Shown here piece after piece: positions 24,837 to 59,815 of a stretch of DNA of 59,815 bases (position 1 is its first letter; each line of letters begins with the position of its first letter). Location of the stretch: NCBI GenBank assembly GCA_013298565.1, contig JAAFIC010000009.1, forward strand, positions 1 to 59,815, written 5' to 3'. The stretch is from Alphaproteobacteria bacterium. GTDB lineage: Bacteria; Pseudomonadota; Alphaproteobacteria; Elsterales; Elsteraceae. Position numbers and translations under genes: made by a program. The notes beneath the pieces were generated by a model. It did no database searches and had not been told where the DNA came from. It saw only the letters and a list, made by a program, of their open reading frames with translations.

Positions 24837-25568
24837 ATGGTTCGAGCCAAGCCAATGGGCGGAGCGCCAGAGCAGGGTCCAAAGATCGAGACGGGGGACC
24901 GTGAGGCGGTGTTTGGACGGATTCAGAGTCCCCGAACAGTGGGCGTATCGACACAGGCGGGCCTTGCAAGTGGTGGCGGCGGACCCCATGATCCTAATAT
25001 GGAAGCACGGGTTGCAAAAGTAGAAGCGGCTGTCGAGCACATTCAACGCGATGTCGCTGAGGTGAAAACCGATCTGCGCGCCTTCAGGGCTGAGGTTCGT
25101 GCTGACTTTAAGGAAGTCCGCGACGAGTTTAAGGCAGTGCGCGAGGAATTTAAGTCAGATATCGGATCGCTTAGGGCTGAGGTTCGTACTGGCTTCAAGG
25201 AAGTCCGCGACGAGCTTAAGTCAGATATCGGATCGCTTAGGGCTGAGGTTCGTACTGGCTTCAAGGAAGTCCGCGACGAGCTTAAGTCAGATATCGGATC
25301 GCTTAGAGGTGAGGTTCATACTGGCTTCAACGAAGGGCGCGACGAATTTAAGTCAGATATTGGATCGCTGAGGGCTGAGGTTCACGCTGGCTTCAAGGAA
25401 GTGCGCGACGAGTTCAAGTTGGTCGATGAAAAATTTAAGTTGGTTGATGAAAAATTTAAGTCGATGCACGGTCAAATGCGGGCTGATTTTCTTATTCTGG
25501 CAGGAATGATTATCGCTGTTGCTGTGGGTCTCGCGGGTCTTATGGCGAAAGGCTTTAAGTGGCTTTAG
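24837..25568 (+). CDS. Coiled-coil protein with C-terminal membrane anchor and internal 22-aa repeats
   Basis: 243 residues from ATG 24837; an in-frame TTG two codons upstream is less likely. Residues 1–55 are low-complexity and probably disordered. About residues 56–210 form a continuous heptad-rich coiled coil made largely of a 22-residue unit (KSDIGSLRAEVRTGFKEVRDEL). A single hydrophobic helix (FLILAGMIIAVAVGLAGLMA) ends the protein. The design resembles DUF1640/CCDC90-like tail-anchored coiled coils. Repeat copies are almost identical at DNA level, so copy number is probably variable between strains. Function unknown; a structural or adaptor role is a guess. Confidence 0.72.
   Translation: MVRAKPMGGAPEQGPKIETGDREAVFGRIQSPRTVGVSTQAGLASGGGGPHDPNMEARVAKVEAAVEHIQRDVAEVKTDLRAFRAEVRADFKEVRDEFKAVREEFKSDIGSLRAEVRTGFKEVRDELKSDIGSLRAEVRTGFKEVRDELKSDIGSLRGEVHTGFNEGRDEFKSDIGSLRAEVHAGFKEVRDEFKLVDEKFKLVDEKFKSMHGQMRADFLILAGMIIAVAVGLAGLMAKGFKWL
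25152..25415 (+). repeat. Four tandem 66-bp in-frame repeats
   Basis: Four head-to-tail 66-bp units begin at 25152, 25218, 25284 and 25350, each starting AAGTCAGATAT. The second unit is nearly identical to the first and the fourth is the most diverged. Partial units flank both ends. The unit is 22 codons, so gain or loss keeps the frame. Confidence 0.9.
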
Positions 25569-46849: not shown

Positions 46850-47965
46850 ATGGCGCGCCTCAAGCACCCGGACCCTGCCAAAGCCCCGCCCGCCGCTTAC
46901 GGGCGTCCGCCCCAATCGGAATGGATCGGCCCGTACCAAATCCGGGTGCGTTGGCGCAAAAAGGGCATGCCTTCGGTCTCGAAGGTGGTCGAGTCCTGGC
47001 CGCAAGCCTGGGATTGGTATGAGGCCAAGGAAGCCGAATTCACGCTACGGGGAACGATAGCGAACAAGAAGGAAGCGGAGAGAACCACCTTTGCCGAAGC
47101 GCTGGACCTCTATCTCGCGTCCGGCGAGGTCGACAGGAAGCGCTCGGGCGACCGGGAGAAATGGCGCATCGAGACCCTGAAAGCCGAGCCGTGGGCAGCG
47201 AGTTTCCTCAATACCCTGAGCGTCGTGGAACTTCAGCGCTGGGTAGATGAGCGGCATCGCGGCGGCTGGTCGCCGTCGACCATCGGCAGCTTCCTCGCCA
47301 CCATTTCAAAAACCTTCCAGCACCTCCATAAGCGCCCCGGCTTCGAGGGACTCGGCAATCCGGTCCGCGCCGTCAGTCGCCCCAAGCAGCGCCCCGGCCG
47401 CAAAGCGCATCTTACGGAAGCGCAGGAAGCGGAATTACTGGCCATCATCGACGCGCGAAAAGGGCTGCGCTCAACCTATTGGCTCGGCCCGTTGGTCCGC
47501 TTGGCGCTCGCCACCGGCATGCGGCAGGGCGAATTGCGCGAGTTGCTGTGGTCGGACATCCGCCTGTCCGAATCCTGGCTTCAGGTGCGCGAAAGCAAAG
47601 ACACGAAGGGCGGAACCCGGATTCGCGACGTGCCGCTAACGCCCGACGCGGTGGCACTGCTGAAGGCGCTGAAACGGGAGCTGCCGCGCCGCCTCGACGG
47701 TCGCTTGTTCCCGCCCATTGACGTCCAAACCGCCTCAAAAGCCTTTGCCCGCGTCGCCGCTCAGGCAGGCTTGCCGGACCTGACCTTTCATGACCTACGC
47801 CATGTGGCGGTGACCCGCTTGGCCGAGGTCGTGTCTAGTCCGTTGGAACTTGCCGAATTCAGCGGTCACCGGGATTTGCAGACGCTGAAGCGCTATCACA
47901 ATCCAAGGGCCGCCGATTTGGCACGGAAGGTAGCGCGGCGGATTGAGGAGAGTGCAGGGAAATAA
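46850..47965 (+). CDS. int: Tyrosine recombinase / integrase
   Basis: 371-residue site-specific recombinase of the phage integrase type. An N-terminal arm- and core-binding region covers roughly residues 1–190. The catalytic domain has the first Arg in ATGMRQGELRELLW, HxxR in FHDLRHVAVTR, the His in FSGHRDLQT and the nucleophile Tyr in LKRYHNP. It begins about 90 bp from the tRNA-Thr fragment, the usual place for an island integrase. Short GGGTAAA repeats (46818–46835) just before the gene may be arm sites. It probably catalyses insertion and excision of the island to the right. Confidence 0.94.
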   Translation: MARLKHPDPAKAPPAAYGRPPQSEWIGPYQIRVRWRKKGMPSVSKVVESWPQAWDWYEAKEAEFTLRGTIANKKEAERTTFAEALDLYLASGEVDRKRSGDREKWRIETLKAEPWAASFLNTLSVVELQRWVDERHRGGWSPSTIGSFLATISKTFQHLHKRPGFEGLGNPVRAVSRPKQRPGRKAHLTEAQEAELLAIIDARKGLRSTYWLGPLVRLALATGMRQGELRELLWSDIRLSESWLQVRESKDTKGGTRIRDVPLTPDAVALLKALKRELPRRLDGRLFPPIDVQTASKAFARVAAQAGLPDLTFHDLRHVAVTRLAEVVSSPLELAEFSGHRDLQTLKRYHNPRAADLARKVARRIEESAGK

Positions 47966-47992: not shown

Positions 47993-49027
47993 CTAAGCAG
48001 TTGCGAGCCAGCCCTTGTCGCGTAACGTGTCCAAGGCCAAGGCGATCTGGTCTTCCGAAAAACGCTTTTTGCGTTCATTCCAGGCATAGATTTTAGCGAC
48101 CGCTTCTTGCGTGTCGGCGGCGTGCTCGCGGCTTGCGACCCAGTGGGCGGTGGCGAGGAGTTCAAGACCGAAAGGTGTCTCAAAGCCCTCGACCAAATCC
48201 GCAACCCGTTCGAAGCGCAAAACAGTGTCGGCCTTGTCGGCAAGAAAGGCTGAGGCGTCTTCCACCGCGCCGGGGACCAACTCAAGCCGCTTTTCGGGTG
48301 CGTCGCCGCCATCAGAATAGCCCGTCAGAAGGTGCCCTTCGATGGTCCGCATGACATGCCGCAGGTTCTCGGCATAAGGGCCATACAGCGCTTTAGTGTA
48401 GTTCAGACGCAGTGGCTCCCCTGCCTCCTGCATAAAATACATTAGCTTATGAAGCTCAAGCAGCGTCACGAACGGGTCCATAAGCCCATTGAGGTAGCGG
48501 TGCGTAAGCACGACAAGGGCCGCCCTGCCGGACGTCATGGCGGGCACGTCGCGGGATTTGGTGACGGCGGGCGCGCCGGTGGGTTCATAAATCATCACCG
48601 CCACACCGCTTAGATCGCGCAGGGCTTCGACGATACGCGGGCGCACGTCCGCCCAATTCAATCCGCCTAGACCAGACCCGAGCGGTGGAATGGCAATCGA
48701 CCGAATCCCGCGTGTCCGAACCTCCTCAACGAGCGCCATCAGACCGGAGTCGATATCTTCCATCCGGCTCTTACCCCGCCAGTGGCGCTTCGTGGGGAAA
48801 TTAACGATGAATTTGGGATTGGTCAGCGTGCCCGTCTCGAAAACAAACATCTTCCCGGGGCGTAACTCTTCCCGCGCACAGGCAGTTTCATAGGCTTTGA
48901 AGTTTTCAGGAAAGTTATTTTTGAACTGAAGCGCAATACCGCGTCCCATAATGCCGACGCAATTGACCGTGTTGACGAGCGCTTCTGCATTCGCTTGCAA
49001 GATATCGCCAGATTTAAACTCGATCAT
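47993..49027 (-). CDS. darG: DarG-type macrodomain antitoxin (DNA ADP-ribosyl glycohydrolase)
   Basis: 344 residues. The N-terminal macrodomain (about 1–155) shows IEFKSGDILQANAEALVNTV, NCVGIMGRGIALQFK and the diphosphate loop IPPLGSGLGGLNW. The C-terminal helical domain (about 170–340; RYLNGLMDPFVTLLELHKLM) is the part that directly binds and blocks DarT. DarG removes ADP-ribose from thymidines in DNA. A perfect Shine–Dalgarno (GGAGGG) precedes it, 14 bases after the darT stop. It converges with the integrase gene (27-bp gap). Confidence 0.94.
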   Translation of the reverse strand: MIEFKSGDILQANAEALVNTVNCVGIMGRGIALQFKNNFPENFKAYETACAREELRPGKMFVFETGTLTNPKFIVNFPTKRHWRGKSRMEDIDSGLMALVEEVRTRGIRSIAIPPLGSGLGGLNWADVRPRIVEALRDLSGVAVMIYEPTGAPAVTKSRDVPAMTSGRAALVVLTHRYLNGLMDPFVTLLELHKLMYFMQEAGEPLRLNYTKALYGPYAENLRHVMRTIEGHLLTGYSDGGDAPEKRLELVPGAVEDASAFLADKADTVLRFERVADLVEGFETPFGLELLATAHWVASREHAADTQEAVAKIYAWNERKKRFSEDQIALALDTLRDKGWLATA

Positions 49028-49041
49028 TACGCCCTCCTGTC

Positions 49042-49689
49042 TTAATAGTACCAGTCTCTTCGGATCTCTATCCTCGGCCTATGGGCTGCTCCTGCAATCG
49101 CATCCGAGACGCTTTGTACAATGGCCGACGAATAAACGCCAATTCGCTCGACAAGATCCCACGGAAGTTTTCGCTCAATCAGAAACTCGGCCTGTTTAGC
49201 CTCCTGGACGTCCTGTTGAGAGAAGTCTCTCGCTTGGATTGCATCCCAATTAAGCGCGCTGAGGTCGCTTACCTCTGTGCGGAACTCCGCGTACCTGGCA
49301 CCAGCATTGGACAGCGATATCGCCCAGCGGTGTCCGTTCTTTGCCGCCCAGGCGACGGCCTGGTGCAAATCAACTTCCAGATGGACAATCGGCTGTTGAC
49401 CGCCGCGATAGGCTAGGCCTGCATTGTTTGCGCGATGGATGACATATAGCATTATTGACCTTGAACAAAAATAGAACGGAACGCAATCGCCGACGGTGAG
49501 GCTCATATGACCTGTGACCGGAAGCCGGAGCCGTCGTTGCTTGATCTCACTCATACCGATGGTCGTTCCACCCGTCCGCTGAACCATAACCGCATCCGCC
49601 CACAAGCAACCATCGCCGACAATCGACGCGAGGTTGTCCAGGTGGACGATGTGGTAGAGCTTGGGACTGGTCGGAACAGGCATCGGCAA
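49042..49689 (-). CDS. darT: DarT ADP-ribosyltransferase toxin (DUF4433)
   Basis: 215 residues. DarT adds ADP-ribose to thymidine in single-stranded DNA, halting replication; DarTG systems also act against phage. The NAD-binding N-terminus is YHIVHLDNL. The IKQRRLRLPV segment carries the conserved Arg, VPFYFCSRSIMLYVIH is the family core, and E168 in KQAEFLIE is the predicted catalytic Glu. All key residues appear present, so the toxin is likely active. It sits upstream of darG in the normal order. A 192-bp gap with no gene separates it from the next operon. Confidence 0.94.
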   Translation of the reverse strand: MPMPVPTSPKLYHIVHLDNLASIVGDGCLWADAVMVQRTGGTTIGMSEIKQRRLRLPVTGHMSLTVGDCVPFYFCSRSIMLYVIHRANNAGLAYRGGQQPIVHLEVDLHQAVAWAAKNGHRWAISLSNAGARYAEFRTEVSDLSALNWDAIQARDFSQQDVQEAKQAEFLIERKLPWDLVERIGVYSSAIVQSVSDAIAGAAHRPRIEIRRDWYY

Positions 49690-49881: not shown

Positions 49882-52200
49882 CTACCCCGGTTTCTTTAAA
49901 GGGTGCAAGCGGCGCGTATCGCCCCCATTATTCCAATAGGAGCCTGACTTATCTCGATTCGGTAAACCATGATTTGGGCAATGCATTGCATTGGCGAGCT
50001 GCTCTACCTGCCGAGCAAAGCGAATGCCATCATTGAGGGGGAGGTCAAAAGCACTAGCACTATAATGTGCCCCGAGGACATTCCGAATGTTGGCAATTGT
50101 TTTCAGTTCCTCCAGAATCGGCCCAAGGAGGATGATTTGAGGGGGTGACGAAGCATTAGCGCCTCGGTCGGGTATCTCAATCTTCAGGGCCGCCAGTAGT
50201 TTATCATTAACACCGGAAAGTAAATCGCCCAGAGTGTAGTTTCCGCCAGGGCGTCGAGGTAAAGCACAGCCATAGGTTAGTGTGATAAAATCTAAGAGCC
50301 ATTCAAGAATAACCCCGGCCTTAGCGCAGAGGGCCTGCACATCCGGCGATGGCATGCTTAATAGTGCCCTTAGACGTTCAATGTCGGGTATTGATTTGCC
50401 GAGCACTAAGCCATCACTAAGGGACCACTCGGTGAGTTCAACGAACTGACAGGCCTGATCCGGCTTCAGTAAACCCCACCGGTATTTTTCGCGCCATGGA
50501 CGATAGTGAGTGGTAACGATTGTGTGTTGAAACTGAGCGCTAATGTTATAAATCATGCCAATAACGCGCTCGACATGCGGCTCATCCACACTTCCCAACA
50601 CATCATCGAGAATCAGCACGGTCTCAGCAGCTTGATCGCGCCCGGCAAGCGCCAAAAATACGCACAGGCCCAGTGTGTCCAAATGCGACTGACTAAAATA
50701 GGCGGGCGGTGGTGCATTGTGGTTTGAAAAACCAGCGCTTAAATCGAGAGACGCGCGCTTCTTGGGGTCTAACTGGAGTGTGATCTTATCCAAGCCTTCA
50801 CCCGGATGGAGTTTTTCATAAAGCCGCCCAACCTGCTGCGCGATTTCAGTAATGATGCCATCGGTGAATTTCTGGCGTTCTGCCTGGCAATGATTGAGCG
50901 CTTCTTCCACTTTCGGCAGCAGTAAGGTCAATTCTTGCACACGCTTAGCGTTGGTTTCATAACGGTTCAGAGCTGACGCCAGATGATCCAGCGCTTTACT
51001 TTCATCGCGCCATTCGGCTTCAACCTCTGCCCATCGGGCAGCAAACGTCGCGTTAGCGGTCAGCCATTCCGGTAATTTTGTGGTATCCTTTGGGGGTATC
51101 GTGACGGGAAAATGGATATTTATTGGCCAAGAGTGTGTTTTGCTTGCCGCGAACGCGGTTTCGACCGCTAGATACTCTTCGACTGTCTGGCGCAGGGCTT
51201 GCCGTGTCTTCTCCAGTATTGCATGCTGTTTCAGACATTCGGCAGTGACAGTTCTTAAAATTTCCAACTGGTCAAGGCGCGTTTTAATGGCAGCGCTCAG
51301 TCCAACGATATTGTCTGGACTGGCGCAGAGCGGGCAGGAATCTGTATTTGGGTGTTTCTCAAGATAGGCATCGCCCGCCTCCAACACACTCAAATGATCT
51401 GCGGCATGCTCGCCTAAAGCGGCAAGGGCAACGCGCTGCCCTTGATCGGCAAGACCGGCAGCCGTTTGTGCCTCCTGAACCGCCTTTTGCCGGGTTTCTA
51501 GCCTGTCAGGATAGGTTTTGAGCGCTTCAAAATTTGTTCGTAATTTTCCAATAGCGGTAATGTGCGCCGTTAAGTCCGTCGTTGGTGCGCTCAATTTCCG
51601 TTTCGCCCAGGCAACGGGATTTAACTCGGCTGGTTTATCTACTCTCTCGTAAATATCATTTAGTGCACCGAGACTCTCTTGTTCCAGTTCGCGCGCCTGC
51701 TTTTTTTCAGCATCCAAAGATGTTACAAGCTGACGAAGTGATTGTTCCGAGCGCTCAAAATCTTCAATATCGATAAATCGTTTCATGGCCTCGTAGCGCT
51801 TGGCAGGGGCCTCTTCGATCAATTTCAGAATTTGCTGACGCCGCAAAAGCTGGATGTTAAGATTTGCCTGACTGGGGATAAGGGCCGCTGCCTTATTGCC
51901 CGCCATTTTACGAGAATATGTGCTCGTGCTGGTTTCTAGACAGACGGATAGCTCTGTTGAACGCTTTCCTGCGGTTGGCCAGAATTTTGCCAAACTACTG
52001 CCCATGCCGCGATCTTCCAAAGACCCTATACGCCCTTCGACCAAAAACTCAAAGGCATCGCAAATGGTCGTTTTGCCCGTGCCATTCTCGCCATAAATGA
52101 GGGTGAGTTTTTTGTTTTTTTCAAACTCAATCTTGAATGTCGCGGCGGACCCGCGAAATGCGGTCAGCGTGAGTGATTTTAGGGCTGGGGAGACGGCCAT
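49882..52200 (-). CDS. Rad50/RloC-like zinc-hook AAA ATPase with C-terminal HEPN-like motif
   Basis: 772 residues. The Walker A GENGTGKT is at 37–44. Long coiled coils (about 150–440) flank a CPLC zinc hook at 289–292. ABC-like signature region YFSQSHLDTLGL at 501–512, Walker B VLILDDVLGSVDE at 528–540 and H-loop TTHY at 563–566. The last 150 residues are a separate helical domain with IRNVLGAH, an R706-x5-H712 motif of the HEPN RNase type. The plan resembles RloC anticodon nucleases, but family identity is not proven. Third gene of a three-gene operon with the small protein and the SNF2 helicase. Probably a phage-defence effector. Confidence 0.8.
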   Translation of the reverse strand: MAVSPALKSLTLTAFRGSAATFKIEFEKNKKLTLIYGENGTGKTTICDAFEFLVEGRIGSLEDRGMGSSLAKFWPTAGKRSTELSVCLETSTSTYSRKMAGNKAAALIPSQANLNIQLLRRQQILKLIEEAPAKRYEAMKRFIDIEDFERSEQSLRQLVTSLDAEKKQARELEQESLGALNDIYERVDKPAELNPVAWAKRKLSAPTTDLTAHITAIGKLRTNFEALKTYPDRLETRQKAVQEAQTAAGLADQGQRVALAALGEHAADHLSVLEAGDAYLEKHPNTDSCPLCASPDNIVGLSAAIKTRLDQLEILRTVTAECLKQHAILEKTRQALRQTVEEYLAVETAFAASKTHSWPINIHFPVTIPPKDTTKLPEWLTANATFAARWAEVEAEWRDESKALDHLASALNRYETNAKRVQELTLLLPKVEEALNHCQAERQKFTDGIITEIAQQVGRLYEKLHPGEGLDKITLQLDPKKRASLDLSAGFSNHNAPPPAYFSQSHLDTLGLCVFLALAGRDQAAETVLILDDVLGSVDEPHVERVIGMIYNISAQFQHTIVTTHYRPWREKYRWGLLKPDQACQFVELTEWSLSDGLVLGKSIPDIERLRALLSMPSPDVQALCAKAGVILEWLLDFITLTYGCALPRRPGGNYTLGDLLSGVNDKLLAALKIEIPDRGANASSPPQIILLGPILEELKTIANIRNVLGAHYSASAFDLPLNDGIRFARQVEQLANAMHCPNHGLPNRDKSGSYWNNGGDTRRLHPLKKPG

Positions 52201-52205
52201 TAGAG

Positions 52206-52382
52206 TTACCCTTTCGTGCTCGCAAGGTCGATCTCATGTTTCCAGTCGGTCTCCCGCATGGTGCCTGCTTCGATCTTGGTGAGGAGCGCGCCGCGCTTTT
52301 CTGGGCGGATCAAACCTGATCGGATCAACCGATCTACCACCAACACAGCCAGTTGCGCTGACGGCGTAACCTTCTCGCTCAT
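52206..52382 (-). CDS. Small protein (58 aa) between helicase and ATPase genes
   Basis: 58 residues from ATG 52382, which overlaps the helicase stop (ATGA); the ATPase gene starts 5 bases after its stop. The tight coupling argues that it is real. Sequence is helical and charged (QLAVLVVDRLIRSGLIRPEK, then EAGTMRETDWKHEIDLAS), with no membrane segment or known motif. By position it may be a subunit linking helicase and ATPase, or an inhibitor of the HEPN effector. Not recognised. Confidence 0.75.
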   Translation of the reverse strand: MSEKVTPSAQLAVLVVDRLIRSGLIRPEKRGALLTKIEAGTMRETDWKHEIDLASTKG

Positions 52383-55252
52383 TGCACCCCCCATCGAATC
52401 GTGAATAGCGGCTTGGTATCAATCTTTTGTTCAAGATTTCTCTCGATTTGCGCGATAAGCTCTACCCGCTGTTCATCAACTTTATCTTGTGCGGTGAACA
52501 GTGAGCGGCGTTTTGTCGAGCGCTCTGTTTCAAGTGCTTTAACGGTTTTCTGCCCAGCTAATTTCTCTTCAAGTGTTAATGCTACGGAGGACGCCCTCTG
52601 CGCGTCTTTAATCTTGCGATCCAGTTCTTTCAATTCGCGCTCTAGCCCGACTTTTAAATCCTCGGCCCACGTGTAAAGTTTATCGACCTCAGCCCCGAAA
52701 AACTGCGCATTACGCCCGGAGATTTCCGCACAAACCCTACCTTGCTGGACAGACAGGGTTTCCAGAAGAACGGGCATGACCGTTTCCGGTACTATTGCAT
52801 TGCCAACCACGCTTCCGCCGATAGTCATAAGACGGGAAGCTGTTTCTTCAGCGAGTACAGCACCCTCATCGGTTATCCCAGTCAATAAAAGATGGTCTTC
52901 ATACTGGCCAAGAGAGTTGACCGATAATAGCGTGGCTATCAGCCAACCTGTTTTTCCAACGAGGGGCTCAATCTGCGAAATAAGGCCTTCATACTGCGCA
53001 TAATTAAATATGATCTCAGCCGCGAGTAATGTCCGTGACTTTGCGCGAGATACGATTGCGTCACCAAGAGGATGATTTAAACGGAACAGATGGGCGTCAC
53101 CCGTCCGCCGGGGCAACTCGTATAGCCCGGTTGGAATGTCGGTCCTGCTTATCCATGTCGGTATTCTGTTAAGCCGGAAAGAAGCGGTATCGATGAACTC
53201 AGCGTCTCCAGCCAGCTCGTATTTCGCGAGTTTCATCAACTTATGCTCAAATTGATTTAGGTAAAGATTAGTATCTTCACTACGAACTTTAAGTTTTTCA
53301 CGCACCTCATCATCAAAATTTTCTAATAATTTCCGGCGCGCATTAGTCATTGCCTCATTAATTTCAGGGCTTAAATCTTTTTGAAGCTGATCGAAAGCCG
53401 ATTTAATTTGATCTTTCTGGCGGCATTGCTGATAAATTCCCGCGATCCGCTTCTCGAAATCTACACCTGATTCAATCGACCCCAACACCTCATCACTCGC
53501 ACCAAAGACGCCTTCAAAGAGTTGAAATTTTTCAGAGAGCAACTGGTAAACGCGCTGGTCGGCCTCATTCTTGCGATTCAGGAAATTTATAACCACGACG
53601 TCATGCTTCTGGCCATATCGATGGCAGCGTCCAATCCGTTGTTCGATGCGTTGCGGATTCCAAGGAAGGTCGTAGTTCACGACCATAGAACAGAATTGAA
53701 GGTTAATGCCTTCTGCACCCGCTTCCGTGGCAATCATGATTCTGCCGCGTTCGCGAAAGTAATCGACAAGGGCGGAGCGCATATCAGCCGTTTTTGATCC
53801 GGTGACTTTATCCGATTCTTTGTGGCGGGATAGCCAATCCTTATAAATTTCCTTGGACCCGTCATCAGTGTTTGTGCCATTGAAAAGCACAATTCGATCT
53901 GAAAATGGGCTATTCGCCAAGAGTTTCAGTATATAGGTCTGAGTACGACGAGATTCGGTGAAGATAATTGCTTTTTCGTCTGCACCAAACTCACGTGCCT
54001 TAGCGAATCCAACCTCTAAGGCTTTCAGAAGAGCAAGCCCCTTAGAATTTTGTTCAATGGATGTTGCTAATGCGGCGTATTCACGAAGCTCGGCAATTTC
54101 AAATTCAAGCGCTCGCTGGTCTGATTCGGTGAGTGCATCTGCCTCATCATCAACCCACTCGTCCATCGTTTCATCTAGAGCTTCGTAATCGTCGCTTAAA
54201 TCCTCGGCAAGTGATGTCAGCCTGCTCCGGCCGAGGCGCTTCTCAAGTCTGTTAGAGATCGATGTTAGGGCTCCTGCGATGGCAAAACTCGAAGACGCTA
54301 ACAGTTTTCGCAGCACGAGCGTCATTAATGATCGCTGACTTGCCGGAAGCGCCTGAAGATTGTCTCGTTGTAAATATTCAGTGACTAAATTATAGAGGCG
54401 ATCTTCAGTGGCATCAGGATTAAATTCTTCAAGAATAGCGTGACGATTTGTGTAGGGAACATATGCCGTTACTTGCCTGCGTAGAGTGCGATGACAGATC
54501 GGTTTTAGCCGCTCTCGTAAAATCTCAAAGGTCCGTTCTTGGGAGAGGTTGGCAAATTGCTCACGAAAGCTCTTCAAATCTCCGAATGAATGCTCATCAA
54601 TAAAGGTAACTAAGCCATATAATTCTAACAGAGAGTTTTGCAAAGGTGTTGCCGTCAGAAGTAGCTTTTTACTTTCTGATAAGGCATCCTTAAGTGTGTT
54701 TGAGATTATATTTGAAGATTTATAAACATTTCTAAGCCTATGGGCTTCATCAATAACAACTAAATCCCAATTATTTGCTCGAATGTCGATGGCTTTGTTT
54801 CTTGCAAACTGATAAGAGCAAATTATAACGTTACTACTTGAGTCAAATGGTCGCAAATTACCTTCCTTAATTTCAAGATTATATGATTTTGACTCTATAA
54901 TTGTGCAGGGAATAAAAAATTTTTCGTTCAGTTCTTGATACCATTGCTTGCGGAGATTCGACGGGGCAATGATAAGAATGCGACGTTTGCCTTCGGCCCA
55001 ACGCTGCGAAATCACTAGTCCAGCTTCAATGGTTTTACCAAGGCCGACCTCATCCGCTAAAAGCGCACCTTTAGAAAGAGGGGAAGCAAATGCAAAAAGC
55101 GCTGCATCGACCTGGTGTGGGTTCATATCCACCTGAGCACCAGCAACGGCAACAGCGAGTTTCTCATTGCTGCTGGACGGTTGGCGCCTAACTAACTCGT
55201 AGGCAAGAAGCTTGGCATGAAATTCTGTTATAGAAATAGTGTTATTCTGCAT
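52379..55252 (-). CDS. SNF2-family DEAD/DEAH helicase/translocase (defence-type)
   Basis: 957 residues. RecA-like domain 1: DEVGLGKTIEAG (67–78), DEAH at 168–171, LLLTATPLQNS at 198–208. RecA-like domain 2: GAEGINLQFCSMVVNYDLPW and RIEQRIGRCHRYGQ. A long C-terminal region (about 560–957) is mixed helical, ending in coiled coil. The form resembles RapA and the DISARM DrmD helicase but no methylase or DUF1998/PLD partners are present. First gene of the operon; its upstream region is very AT-rich. Base composition is visibly lower in GC than the rest of the window, consistent with recent transfer. The proposed role is DNA or RNA sensing and translocation in a defence system. Confidence 0.85.
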   Translation of the reverse strand: MQNNTISITEFHAKLLAYELVRRQPSSSNEKLAVAVAGAQVDMNPHQVDAALFAFASPLSKGALLADEVGLGKTIEAGLVISQRWAEGKRRILIIAPSNLRKQWYQELNEKFFIPCTIIESKSYNLEIKEGNLRPFDSSSNVIICSYQFARNKAIDIRANNWDLVVIDEAHRLRNVYKSSNIISNTLKDALSESKKLLLTATPLQNSLLELYGLVTFIDEHSFGDLKSFREQFANLSQERTFEILRERLKPICHRTLRRQVTAYVPYTNRHAILEEFNPDATEDRLYNLVTEYLQRDNLQALPASQRSLMTLVLRKLLASSSFAIAGALTSISNRLEKRLGRSRLTSLAEDLSDDYEALDETMDEWVDDEADALTESDQRALEFEIAELREYAALATSIEQNSKGLALLKALEVGFAKAREFGADEKAIIFTESRRTQTYILKLLANSPFSDRIVLFNGTNTDDGSKEIYKDWLSRHKESDKVTGSKTADMRSALVDYFRERGRIMIATEAGAEGINLQFCSMVVNYDLPWNPQRIEQRIGRCHRYGQKHDVVVINFLNRKNEADQRVYQLLSEKFQLFEGVFGASDEVLGSIESGVDFEKRIAGIYQQCRQKDQIKSAFDQLQKDLSPEINEAMTNARRKLLENFDDEVREKLKVRSEDTNLYLNQFEHKLMKLAKYELAGDAEFIDTASFRLNRIPTWISRTDIPTGLYELPRRTGDAHLFRLNHPLGDAIVSRAKSRTLLAAEIIFNYAQYEGLISQIEPLVGKTGWLIATLLSVNSLGQYEDHLLLTGITDEGAVLAEETASRLMTIGGSVVGNAIVPETVMPVLLETLSVQQGRVCAEISGRNAQFFGAEVDKLYTWAEDLKVGLERELKELDRKIKDAQRASSVALTLEEKLAGQKTVKALETERSTKRRSLFTAQDKVDEQRVELIAQIERNLEQKIDTKPLFTIRWGVQ

Positions 55253-55723: not shown

Positions 55724-55866
55724 GGCCGGGGGCTATATACTCCTCCTTCAAAGTCCGGCCTCCGGCTGTGAACCCTTTTAGCGACGGGGCGTGAATGTCT
55801 TGCCACAAGCCCGGAGGTAGTTCGGCGGCGATAGCCGCGCGACTGTGCCTGAGGAGAACAACCTCC
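55724..55866. ncRNA. Structured GC-rich region A (possible RNA or IS200/605-type end remnant)
   Basis: An abrupt GC-rich block in AT-rich surroundings. Pairings seen: GGCCGG (55724–55729) with CCGGCC (55755–55760); GGAGGT (55813–55818) with ACCTCC (55861–55866), enclosing GCGGC-GATA-GCCGC (55825–55838). No protein family seen in any frame. Such blocks occur as omega-RNA-like ends of IS200/IS605 TnpB or IscB elements, but no tnpB or iscB gene is present. Strand not certain. Confidence 0.35.
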
Positions 55867-55993
55867 CCAAACCATTAAGGGCAGTTTCGTTGAACGAGAA
55901 TCACTCTGTTGCACCGCTCTTGCAGCACAGGCGGCAATCCCCTACCTTAAATAAACCGTTTAGCAGCGGCGAAAATCGGAGGGTTCCCCACTC

Positions 55994-56143
55994 TGTCGGG
56001 TGGCCCACCTCATATAAGACCTAACCTTTTCCGAAGGTGCGGGTGGCTCGCGTCCAAAACGAGTTGCACGTTCAGGGAAAGGGTGGGGCGTGTTTGACCC
56101 TTCGTTTTCCACGCTGCTAACCACCCGACACCAGGGGCGAGCC
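55994..56143 (+). ncRNA. Structured region B with possible pseudoknot, upstream of the JAB gene (HEARO/omega-RNA-like?)
   Basis: TGTCGGGTGG (55994–56003) is a perfect complement of CCACCCGACA (56121–56130). GGCTCGC (56045–56051) is a perfect complement of GCGAGCC (56137–56143). The two long-range helices interlock (pseudoknot) or compete. Inside are local stems ACCTT/AAGGT (56024–56038 region) and GGGAAAGGGT with ACCCTT..TTTTCC (about 56075–56110). HEARO RNAs lie immediately upstream of IscB genes in the same way, but the downstream gene here is not IscB. Identity is a hypothesis. Confidence 0.4.
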
Positions 56144-56180
56144 TTGATGGCTCCTGCCTTCCATGGGGAGGTTCCTGCGC

Positions 56181-56891
56181 GTGAAAAATATCGTTGAGTT
56201 AAGCGATGAAGCCCTTATGCAGATTGTGCTGAACGGCCTGGAAGCGTTCATCGTGCGGCATGATCACGTCAAGCGCAGCGGCATTGAAATGCACGGTCAC
56301 CTTCTGGGCCATTACACACAGATGACCCGAAAGAGGAAAATACAGGTTACGCACTTTAGTTGCGATACGTCGGCAACAATGATGCCCGCCTACGTGTCTT
56401 GGAAAAATGAATCTGACCTTTTAAAGCGTAGTCTGGTGGACGGTTTCGGCCTCTGTTATCTCGGCCAAATCCATTCCCATCCTTACCTCAATAGCGACTG
56501 GACCACGGTGGCGGACGCTCGGCGCATCGGGGCTGAGTTCAGTGATGTTGATATTGAAACCGGGCAGGCAACGCTGCAAGAATGTCATGCACGATATGGC
56601 GATGAATGGCACCTGGAGATGGTCGCCACCTTCTATCACACGAAAAATGCGATATTCGTCAAACAGTATGATGAGTTAAAACCGGAGTTCTCAATTGGGA
56701 ATGTTCGGTGTTTTCTTCGAGCTGATGTTTATGAAGTGATGGATGATGGAGATATAAAAAGAGACTACGCAATAATACGATCACCTTTCCTTGAAAATGG
56801 TCGGGAGAAACAGATCGACATTGGCCGCGTGGGTCTAAAGCCGGGCCGTAAATACACATTACATCGCCTGCACAATGGGGAAGCGATATGA
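56181..56891 (+). CDS. JAB/MPN (JAMM) metalloprotease-like protein
   Basis: 236 residues from GTG 56181, which has GGGGAGG nine bases upstream; ATG 56163 is in frame but has no ribosome site and falls at the end of the folded region. JAMM ligands are in place: E36 in SGIEMHGHLLGHY, H98-x-H100 in QIHSHPYLNSDW and D112. Spacing is HxHP-x7-T-x2-D, one residue longer than the common form. JAMM proteins cut ubiquitin-like conjugates; prokaryotic ones occur in Cap/Bil-type defence operons, but no E1 or E2 gene is seen. It overlaps the next gene by four bases. A C-terminal beta-rich extension (about 165–236) is unassigned. Confidence 0.75.
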   Translation: MKNIVELSDEALMQIVLNGLEAFIVRHDHVKRSGIEMHGHLLGHYTQMTRKRKIQVTHFSCDTSATMMPAYVSWKNESDLLKRSLVDGFGLCYLGQIHSHPYLNSDWTTVADARRIGAEFSDVDIETGQATLQECHARYGDEWHLEMVATFYHTKNAIFVKQYDELKPEFSIGNVRCFLRADVYEVMDDGDIKRDYAIIRSPFLENGREKQIDIGRVGLKPGRKYTLHRLHNGEAI

Positions 56892-57892
56892 ATCTCTATG
56901 CTTTGTTCGACCGATTTTATGATGACGAAGGGCAACCGAAAAGACTACCGATAGATCGCAAGTCTGGCCTTATCGCTGTCGGAACGATCAGCGTTACGCT
57001 CGATGAAGAACGGGGCGGGCTGCCGGTCAGTGTTTCTGTGTCGATCTATCCATCCGAGTCGGAATTCAAGGGCAGGATAGCGGATCATTATAATTATGGT
57101 GAGGATGCTCCGCGCGGCGTGGGACCGGATGATTTTTTATTTCTGCGGCGCTTTCTGTGGAAAGAAGCAGAAGGGCGGCAATTGGCGTCTGTAAAGGTGC
57201 CGGATAATTTTGGTGACTCGGATATCTTCACCGCCTGGATTCCACACTCCTACGCGGATATCGGCCAAATCGCGGAATGGTTTGAAGAGGACAAGCCAAC
57301 CAAGCGCGCCGTTAAGGAACGTCTGCTCGAACGCCAGCGTCAAATCCAGGATGTCGCCGGTTGTTATATCGCCTCTTCCGTGGCGCTCATAACGGCGGCA
57401 AAGCGCGATTTGCCGATTGTTGCTTTGGGGGAAGAATGGCGCGACGTTCGCCCCCTTGGGCACCCGTCCGACGCGCTGGACGCCCTCTATGAAGAGGACA
57501 TCCTCTATGAGGAAGAGGCGCGCCCCGAAAACATCCACCTCACGCCTCTGGACCGCGAGGCCCGCCTGAAAACACCTAAAGGGGAATGGTCATGGCCGTC
57601 GCTTCGGTTCTTCGGGGCGGTGCGCCCCGATGGCCTGTTGTGTTTGGGCAGGCGCGAAGGCCTTTGGCGCGCTACCTTCTACCCACAGGGGCAAGATCAG
57701 GAAATCCTTATGGCGGGATACGCCGCTCTCGATAGCGCCGGGGAAATCTCGTTGGATCGGTTTCACCCTAACTGTGCCCCCCAGCCGCCAGTTAAACTGC
57801 GAACCAATCTGATGTACCGTAGGCTGCAAGAGAGAACTGCATGCGTCTGGACTGGGGATTTTTTGAGGCATAGCGTGTATCAGTTTGAATAA
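56888..57892 (+). CDS. Unrecognised protein coupled to the JAB gene
   Basis: 334 residues starting at ATG 56888, inside the JAB stop overlap. No membrane segment, no ATPase loop, no E1/E2 ubiquitin-enzyme motif. Visible regions: a beta-rich N-terminus (about 1–120), a central helix (about 140–165) with ASSVALITAAKRDLP, a very acidic loop (ALDALYEEDILYEEEARPE) and a C-terminal domain with WSWPSLRFFGAVRPDG, in which residues may form a lectin- or nuclease-like beta sheet. Two Cys near the ends (NCAPQPP and TACVWTG). Its strict coupling to the JAB gene suggests a substrate, cofactor or effector of that protease. Function not known. Confidence 0.7.
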   Translation: MNLYALFDRFYDDEGQPKRLPIDRKSGLIAVGTISVTLDEERGGLPVSVSVSIYPSESEFKGRIADHYNYGEDAPRGVGPDDFLFLRRFLWKEAEGRQLASVKVPDNFGDSDIFTAWIPHSYADIGQIAEWFEEDKPTKRAVKERLLERQRQIQDVAGCYIASSVALITAAKRDLPIVALGEEWRDVRPLGHPSDALDALYEEDILYEEEARPENIHLTPLDREARLKTPKGEWSWPSLRFFGAVRPDGLLCLGRREGLWRATFYPQGQDQEILMAGYAALDSAGEISLDRFHPNCAPQPPVKLRTNLMYRRLQERTACVWTGDFLRHSVYQFE

Positions 57893-58061
57893 CGATGGGA
57901 AAATAGCTATCTTCACGGGTGTAGGGGATAACAAATTTGTATTTTTCTAGGCGCTCGGTCTTGGGAAAATTTTCGGCACGTATCAAGAGCATCGGGTGCG
58001 AACCCGTGTAGAATTAAGCAGATTGCACCAAAACCAGATGGCAAAACCGAAAGGTTATAGG

Positions 58062-58910
58062 ATGAAAATCCCAAAGATTATTATGGCTATTGATACTGCT
58101 TTTGTCGATGCCGACCCTCGCTCTACTTATGAGATTGGCTTTGCGATCATCGAAACAGAACGAGGAATTTTGCCTGAGAATATAAGGGTAAAACAATATT
58201 ATATTAAACCAGACCCCAATTACTCATATGAACGGAGTTTACACGGTAAAACGATTCGATCCGCGGGAGATAGGGTCGTGATCGGTAACGAAGCGCATTC
58301 AGGCGTCGAGATTAAGAAGGTACTCGATTTCCTGAATAAGGCGGCTGAAAAAGTCGATTGTTTTGCTGCCCATAATGCCCAGGCGGATCACTCGCGCTTG
58401 CGAAAACTTGCTCAAGAACATGGCATCTCTTGGCCGAATCACCCTTGGCTAAATACGATGACCCTGTTCCGCAAGCTCGAAGGCAGCAAGAAGGGTGCCC
58501 TTGATCAAGCACGCAGCCGTTATGATGGGATCTATCGGTTTGGGCCGAAATCCTCACAGGAGGATGCGCGCATTTCTTTGGCGATCCTGCTTGAGGCAAT
58601 TAAACGTAATCCAATCTTGCTGCAAGAATGTTATCACCAGCGTAATTTTACAGATCTTTCCGATATTGATTTGAAGATTCTTCAAGAGCGGCAAGCGTTA
58701 TTTGATGAACTGGAGGAGCGCATCAGCGACCCGGTGATCAAGCAGCGTATTGATCAAGTCTTTGCGAAACTGGGTATCAACATAGCCCTAGCCGATGGTT
58801 TGGATCATACTGAACGAGCTGAGTTTCTTGACTTGCGGAAAAGTGCGCTTATCAATCAGGTGGACACCCGCAAAAACCCTCGCTCATTGAGCGGGGCTGT
58901 GATTCACTGA
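58062..58910 (+). CDS. DnaQ-fold (DEDD) protein lacking key catalytic residues; 3' end probably truncated by IS
   Basis: 282 residues from ATG 58062, with AAGG eight bases before it; ATG 58038 and GTG 57996 are in-frame alternatives. An RNase H-like 3'-5' exonuclease fold is visible: motif I AIDTAFVD has D11 but Ala13 in place of the usual Glu, motif II HNAQADHSRLR has D109, and motif III SSQEDARIS has D168 but Lys163 where His or Tyr is expected. It is likely catalytically dead or altered. The last residues (about SLSGAVIH) appear to be encoded by the end of the IS5 element, so the native C-terminus is lost. It follows the JAB–334-aa pair after 169 bases. Confidence 0.65.
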   Translation: MKIPKIIMAIDTAFVDADPRSTYEIGFAIIETERGILPENIRVKQYYIKPDPNYSYERSLHGKTIRSAGDRVVIGNEAHSGVEIKKVLDFLNKAAEKVDCFAAHNAQADHSRLRKLAQEHGISWPNHPWLNTMTLFRKLEGSKKGALDQARSRYDGIYRFGPKSSQEDARISLAILLEAIKRNPILLQECYHQRNFTDLSDIDLKILQERQALFDELEERISDPVIKQRIDQVFAKLGINIALADGLDHTERAEFLDLRKSALINQVDTRKNPRSLSGAVIH

Positions 58911-59815
58911 GGGCGTCGCTGCTTGGAGCCTGCCGATGGACCCTCAATCGCTTTTCAGCCTGAACGATCACCTTAAAGCCTTGAGCGCGCACGGCGATCC
59001 GCTTGAGGTTTTGGAGCGGACGGTTGATTTCGAGTATTTCCGAGGCTGGCTTGTCGAGGGGCTTGGCTATGGCGATGGCAGCAAAGGCGGGCGGCCACCG
59101 TTTGATCCGGTGGCGATGTTCAAGATCTTGATCTTGCAAGCACAGCATAATCTCTCGGATGCGCGGACGGAGTTTATGATCCGGGATCGGCTAAGTTGGC
59201 TGCGGTTTCTGGGGTTTTCGCTGGGAGATCGTACGCCGGACGAGAACACCATCCGGCATTTTCGCAATCGGCTGACAGAAACGGGCACGCTGACGCGGGT
59301 GATGAAGGCCTTCGATTGGCAGTTGCAGAAGAAGGGTTATATCCCGATGGCAGGCCAGATCATCGATGCCTCGCTGGTCCCAGCCCCCAAACAGCGCAAT
59401 ACCGAAGGCGAGCAGCAGGCGATCAAGGCGGGCAAAACCGCTTCCGAAATCTGGCCGGACCAACCGGCGAAGGCCGCGCAGAAGGATACGGAGGCGCGCT
59501 GGACGCTGAAGATCGGCGGAAAACAGCGTTTCCGGCAGGATGGCACACCGCTTCCGCTGATCGCCGTTCCGGTGTTCGGCTATAAAACTCATATCAGTAT
59601 CGACCGGCGGTTCGGCTTCATCCGCGCCGCGGCTGTAACCTCCGCCGCCCACGCCGATGGCCGAATGCTGCCCCAGCTCATCGACCGCCAAAATACCAGC
59701 AGCGCCGTTTGGGCCGATACCGCCTACCGCTCCCAGAGGAACGAAGCCTGGCTCGCCGACCGGATGCTGACCAGCCACATTCATCGCAAGAAGCCCAAAG
59801 GTAAGCCGATGCCCC
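58893..59815 (+). mobile_element. IS5-family insertion sequence (right part outside window)
   Basis: Transposase gene plus its left flank. The probable left end is the GGGGCTGTGATTCACTGA stretch around 58893–58910, which also supplies the stop codon of the exonuclease-like gene. The right end and target duplication are not visible. Confidence 0.7.
58936..59815 (+). CDS. IS5-family transposase (3'-truncated by window edge)
   Basis: At least 293 residues, frame open to the window end. The N-terminal DUF772 helical region contains GRPPFDPVAMFKILILQAQ, and RTPDENTIRHFRNRL follows. The DDE catalytic domain shows the first Asp in IIDASLVPAPKQR, then FGYKTHISIDRRFGF and the second Asp in WADTAYRSQRNEAW. 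Start at ATG 58936. Proteins of this kind occur in IS5 elements widespread in alphaproteobacteria. No internal stop or frameshift is visible, so it may be active. Confidence 0.92.
   Translation, partial: MDPQSLFSLNDHLKALSAHGDPLEVLERTVDFEYFRGWLVEGLGYGDGSKGGRPPFDPVAMFKILILQAQHNLSDARTEFMIRDRLSWLRFLGFSLGDRTPDENTIRHFRNRLTETGTLTRVMKAFDWQLQKKGYIPMAGQIIDASLVPAPKQRNTEGEQQAIKAGKTASEIWPDQPAKAAQKDTEARWTLKIGGKQRFRQDGTPLPLIAVPVFGYKTHISIDRRFGFIRAAAVTSAAHADGRMLPQLIDRQNTSSAVWADTAYRSQRNEAWLADRMLTSHIHRKKPKGKPMP

Follow-up and report, generated by a model that had tools for sequence, protein, structure and literature searches.

The described systems closest to the RNA considered here are sRNA-Xcc1 and the phage RNA C4. 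The first (RF02221) came to light in Xanthomonas campestris, where it is ~88 nt long and visible on Northern blots (PMC2996969), the sole member known as an expressed small RNA with defined ends. Integron cassettes carry copies that precede symE (PMC12444791), and the RNA is termed trans-acting in the title of a 2011 paper cited there. In Xylella, sRNA-Xcc1 copies were assigned hundreds of predicted trans targets, and even targets in plants, in keeping with a virulence view (PMC12189769). C4 of phages P1 and P7 binds with its loops a' and b' at a ribosome-binding site, and its precursor is cut by RNase P at the 5' side of the P1 stem (PMC5320573).

Here, we focus on a non-coding block at 55724-56160 of a 59,815-nt stretch of alphaproteobacterial DNA (the window), placed directly upstream of a gene with a JAB domain. 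With a probability of roughly 0.6, we read its core as an RNA of the sRNA-Xcc1 type, though a distant one, acting in the manner of the C4 antisense RNA of phages. A sequence-only reading had described the block as GC-rich, densely folded and without protein coding, with two perfect complementary pairs crossing each other. Both pairs were recovered at exactly these positions (55994-56003 with 56121-56130, 10 bp; 56045-56051 with 56137-56143, 7 bp), and their fates differ: the longer one is real and forms the closing helix P1 of the RNA, whereas the shorter one is at chance level, the block holding eight pairs of at least 7 bp against a mean of 5.7 in dinucleotide shuffles. Perfect pairs of at least 10 bp average ~0.1 per shuffle, and since 27 of 300 shuffles contain one, the 10-bp pair taken by itself is weak evidence.

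The folding statistics support the idea of a dense fold for the 3' part of the block. The whole 451 nt fold only slightly better than shuffled sequence (z -1.87), a result equalled by about 8% of segments drawn at random from the window, whereas 55958-56130 reaches a z of -3.60 with none of 200 shuffles as good. The latter signal is due to a long imperfect helix between an upstream strand and the guide arm (helix A, Table 1), which the sequence-only reading had overlooked and which crosses its 10-bp pair. A second folded module suggested at 55813-55866 proved unexceptional. The block is indeed richer in GC (55-57%) than the left-hand spacer (27-34%); neighbouring genes, however, range from 45 to 60% and the window mean is 58%, so that the unusual part is the AT-rich spacer rather than the block. 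No protein reading of the block was found, and a read-through protein across it was looked for and not found.

Table 1. Coordinates of the putative RNA, its predicted pairing elements and the operon that follows it.
Feature	Position in window	Strand	Basis
Candidate anti-Shine-Dalgarno AACCTCCCCA	55860-55869	+	perfect complement of 56164-56173
Upstream lock strand, helix A partner of 56098-56120	55960-55983	+	folding; pairing in eight copies
Core of sRNA-Xcc1-type RNA (predicted mature form, P1 to CCA)	55994-56133	+	RF02221; models from window alone (R1), from 23 other members (R2) and from three genus copies (R3)
P1 5' strand, part of the 10-bp pair	55995-56003	+	pairs kept in three genus copies; covaries in 23 members
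P2, 56004-56008 CCCAC with 56083-56087 GTGGG	56004-56087	+	encloses ATANAANACC...GGGAAA and insert hairpin
P4 guide hairpin, 56088-56092 with 56110-56114, loop 56093-56109	56088-56114	+	predicted mature fold
Guide arm, partner of upstream lock strand	56098-56120	+	folding; pairing in eight copies
P1 3' strand (56121-56129), then A56130 and CCA (56131-56133), tRNA-acceptor-like	56121-56133	+	sequence
TGGGGAGGTT, contains likely JAB Shine-Dalgarno	56164-56173	+	sequence
JAB-domain gene, likely start GTG 56181 (longer ORF from ATG 56163)	56181-56891	+	homologue alignment
Second operon gene, 334 aa, no family	56888-57892	+	ORF overlapping JAB stop

At Rfam gathering thresholds the window has no match. 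With relaxed limits, the covariance-model search that the sequence-only reading had proposed returned a single family, sRNA-Xcc1, at 55994-56130 with 23 bits, below the gathering score of 53 bits and with an E-value of 0.067 to 0.29 that varied with the stretch searched. A covariance model built from the window sequence alone (R1) was run against 190 genomes of the class and found, besides the window itself, one locus, in a genome of the same genus (G002, E 3e-4); the two copies share GTCGGGTGGCCCAC and GCTAACCACCCG. The same locus is matched by RF02221 (30.9 bits, E 0.0074), and a phylum-wide search with that family showed that the genome of the window holds another copy, on contig C49 (27.3 bits, E 0.018), which R1 also recovered. 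We then have a trio of copies that can be set against the accepted members in both directions. A model from 23 other sRNA-Xcc1 members, with the trio left out (R2), picked out of 264 kb at E<=5 exactly G002 (E 0.0029), C49 (0.044) and the window (0.14, at 55994-56138) and nothing else. Conversely, a model from the trio (R3) found accepted members at their known positions (L043, L044, L047, L048, L053 and L062, with E-values of 3.3e-8 for L048, 6.2e-7 for L053 and 5.1e-6 for L062) and added five further alphaproteobacterial genomes. The single E-values are modest and come from a short calibration; the agreement of independent models nevertheless appears hard to explain by chance. Judged by these comparisons, there is a genuine structured RNA in the block, and it belongs distantly to sRNA-Xcc1.

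Two observations on the wider family may be added. One genome (G466) carries six sRNA-Xcc1 copies on contigs C4, C8, C23 and C86, several of them on one contig, which suggests arrays of RNA-plus-cargo units. Near the copy at L047 there are two matches to the TwoAYGGAY RNA (2372-2494 and 2791-2857).

The structure of the RNA is kept across its homologues. All pairs of P1 are retained in the trio, with one U-A changed to C-G and one U-A to U-G, and the helix covaries in the 23 other members. In all three genus copies NCCA follows directly after P1. The covariation analysis that had been suggested from the sequence showed pairs of P1, P2 and P4 kept with changes on both sides, one P4 pair being lost in the C49 copy, and these compensatory changes among homologues support the earlier view of a functional RNA. 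P2 encloses the conserved ATANAANACC...GGGAAA together with an insert hairpin specific to the window, and P4 of the window is the equivalent of the variable hairpin that in other members matches the neighbouring gene.

The upstream strand adds a second conformation. Folded without it, all three copies adopt the same shape, with a 9-bp P1 followed by N-CCA, P2 and the P4 hairpin. Folded with it, all three prefer helix A, by 3.9 to 10.8 kcal/mol over folds in which P1 is forced. None of 1000 shuffles pairs as well as the guide arm of the window does with its own upstream strand, and in eight alphaproteobacterial copies the pairing of guide arms with their own upstream strands is the best of 40320 permutations. 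Such own-versus-cross pairing, rather than column counts, was used to judge covariation of helix A because alignment A5 misaligns this helix. As the lock strand and P1 compete in these folding models, we infer that the RNA can change from a locked precursor to a form with P1 closed.

What the guide hairpin is directed against emerges from the family as a whole. Across 30 sRNA-Xcc1-type loci, the guide is complementary to its own 75 nt downstream above the level seen with those of other loci (z 6.1, 0 of 10000 permutations), although several of these loci come from related genomes and the permutation controls kinship only in part. Complementarity to the locus's own upstream DNA is weaker (z 3.5, 5 of 10000), and a control region 200-275 nt downstream gave no excess (z 0.4). 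The matched stretch often spans the Shine-Dalgarno and start region or adjoining bases, with gene starts assigned by a simple rule. Two phages outside the set follow the same pattern: in the Vibrio phage VPBES the guide TTTTCCTTGT is complementary to ACAAGGAAAA, and in 1152AP2 CCTTAGAG faces CTCTAAGG before ant and finds a match upstream again. Seven of the downstream proteins tested carry phage-regulator domains (P22_AR_N in two, Rha in two, and KilA-N, Bro-N and AlpA). Within the eight alphaproteobacterial copies the downstream pairing reaches only p ~0.045 (1822 of 40320), a value that two loci account for. In the alphaproteobacterial copies at L083 (1501-1605) and L082 (1501-1619) the guide has a strong match upstream and another at the start of the downstream gene. 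The literature consulted, mostly open access and with the 2011 sRNA-Xcc1 paper outside it, holds no statement that the variable hairpin matches the neighbouring gene.

In the window, the gene next door is identified as JAB by weak PADLOC JAB and Pfam Prok-JAB matches; in an alignment with homologues from Vibrio and Marinomonas the HSHP motif is kept and the GTG start fits. The second gene of the operon has no Pfam match and no relative in 385 genomes of the class. Between the window guide and the JAB start there is no significant pairing (p 0.57 by shuffling, 0.37 by cross-locus permutation), and the site ranks 1113 among 4782 in the window. A match of 10 nt with a bulge, read by eye, was dropped since neither shuffles nor cross-locus comparison nor whole-window ranks supported it. 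The RNA probably controls JAB because the guide of other members matches the start of the adjoining gene; because the window guide shows no detectable pairing there, this control is likely but unproven and a direct effect on JAB is a prediction. The leader of the JAB operon that the sequence-only reading had offered as one option is therefore plausible and is the function we prefer, through antisense of the C4 type, while the specific guide-JAB match did not reach significance. JAB relatives in Vibrio, Marinomonas and three further genomes (G283, G439 and G530) have no such RNA upstream, as expected if the RNA is a control element that moves between loci and not an integral component of JAB systems.

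The lack of significant pairing also gives room to a different view, namely that the RNA is a relative of sRNA-Xcc1 acting in trans, or a decaying remnant, and that its JAB neighbour is coincidental. The genus copies do precede unrelated genes (an ORF for a 50-aa membrane protein at C49, an MCP-like gene at G002), and the wording of the 2011 title points the same way. On the other hand, the guide hairpin, the P1-CCA end and the lock strand are all intact in the window copy and the family as a whole shows complementarity to its own loci, which makes this view unlikely, if worth keeping in mind. A plain cis leader would need no released antisense RNA at all, since JAB translation could be controlled by the candidate anti-Shine-Dalgarno. 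Its pairing with the likely Shine-Dalgarno is the second perfect 10-bp pair of the region, lies within the minimum-energy fold of 55800-56200 and closes a fold with a z of -2.28 (0 of 100). The pair was, however, chosen post hoc from the window sequence, and such a leader leaves both the conserved P1-CCA and lock architecture and the family relation unexplained. We regard it as improbable as a full account; the anti-Shine-Dalgarno is a second candidate route to JAB control.

An inverted repeat at the DNA level, be it a MITE or a recombination or attachment site, could account for the long imperfect repeat at 55960-56120 with no RNA function involved. This is very improbable: the helix sequences vary while the pairing stays, a related RNA from Xanthomonas is seen on Northern blots (PMC2996969), and DNA searches with the block found no second copy in its own genome, the family, the class, plasmids, phages or E. 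coli, the C49 copy being found only by the RNA models. A 27-bp DNA match in another genome (G290) lies inside a nadD-like ORF and is a chance match, and viral contigs scanned for exact patterns yielded either no match or one attributable to chance. A HEARO/omega RNA, as the sequence-only reading had considered, or an RNA for another RNA-guided nuclease was rejected. Such RNAs resemble the block merely in general appearance, pseudoknotted and structured and immediately ahead of an ORF; the block clearly matches another family, is not hit by the HEARO model (RF02033) even at an E-value limit of 10 and offers no sequence, structure or nuclease evidence for such a system, the window's own genome holding no HEARO or IscB N-terminal domain match and 240 class genomes including it no RRXRR/IscB in searches run without a positive control in the sample. 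A fluoride-riboswitch reading was likewise rejected.

The RNA sits in an island with defence-like genes, and beyond this position no link to a defence system is demonstrated. To the left, a gene with a DarT toxin domain (49042-49689, minus strand) adjoins a macro-domain gene (47993-49027, minus strand) in a DarTG-like pair, with an integrase gene at 46850-47965 beside it. The stretch 49882-55252 (minus strand) encodes an AAA/SMC-like ATPase with LmuB-like matches, as well as an SNF2 helicase of DrmD-like type. On plasmids, relatives of this helicase mostly stand beside genes for a DNA methyltransferase and a DEAD/DEAH helicase, in an arrangement like type III R-M; relatives of the divergent helicase are mostly found in islands of R-M type, preceded by a helix-turn-helix gene and with no sign of the RNA. 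After the JAB operon follow a DEDDh-type exonuclease-like gene (57996-58910, plus strand) and, at 58934-59815 (plus strand), an apparent insertion-sequence transposase, read by eye, inside which the contig ends. Tandem repeats of 21 and 66 bases at 25107-25461 are probably coding.

For the preferred reading, a C4-like antisense RNA of the sRNA-Xcc1 type, the following course of events can be proposed. The RNA would be transcribed together with the leader of the JAB operon. In the precursor, folding and conserved pairing suggest that the lock strand pairs with the guide arm and excludes P1. Once P1 forms, resembling a tRNA acceptor with its A-CCA end, RNase P may cut on its 5' side and yield a ~140-nt RNA with a free guide hairpin, which would then block translation of the neighbouring gene by pairing with its ribosome-binding region, as the family statistics indicate and as we predict for JAB. 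Alternatively, 55860-55869 inside the same leader might mask the Shine-Dalgarno of JAB in the window. Release of the RNA and its processing by RNase P are drawn by analogy with C4.

A broader proposal is more tentative and falls somewhat short of even odds in our judgement: sRNA-Xcc1 may be a second widespread class of C4-type antisense RNAs that silence the adjoining accessory gene with which they travel, and its alphaproteobacterial branch may have added a conserved lock strand competing with an acceptor-like P1, a processing-controlled switch that here would stand ahead of the JAB operon of a defence-like island. By the statistics, the most specific target of sRNA-Xcc1 copies is usually the gene next door, as against the current reading in terms of virulence, trans and plant targets. 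From the upstream lock and the acceptor-like P1 follows a specific hypothesis on what switches such RNAs on, and in the window an sRNA-Xcc1-type device precedes a non-phage gene.

With sRNA-Xcc1, the window copy shares the closing helix P1, the conserved ATACAANACC...GGGAA core, the variable guide hairpin that leads into the 3' strand of P1 and a place ahead of an accessory gene in mobile DNA. It differs in its sub-threshold score, in an insert of 51 nt where the model has 4, in its long upstream lock helix and in preceding a JAB gene instead of symE or a phage antirepressor. The comparison with C4 (RF01695, with c4-a1b1 as RF03163) is one of function. Searches with the C4 model, up to E 10 for the window and up to E 1 for its own genome, gave no match, and identity as a C4 RNA was rejected; the core sequences are unlike, and since Rfam keeps C4 and sRNA-Xcc1 as separate families in no common clan, a C4-like way of working is supported and membership in C4 is not. 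As a comparison case served a locus with the canonical leader of C4 immunity, in which c4-a1b1, isrK-like and C4 matches stand in a row (L073, G408:C111, 1385-1578). 24B_1 and sar (PMC12197685) are likewise phage small RNAs that repress antirepressor synthesis, likened here by description alone. What the window RNA has in common with C4 is the upstream position and the closing P1 stem, and its acceptor-like P1 with the A-CCA end makes maturation by RNase P plausible by analogy. As in C4, guide segments of the sRNA-Xcc1 family are complementary both to an upstream site and to the ribosome-binding site, the latter carried by the family and not significant for the window, and antirepressors are among the targets of other members; helix A gives the window the second complementary site upstream that a1b1 represents in C4.
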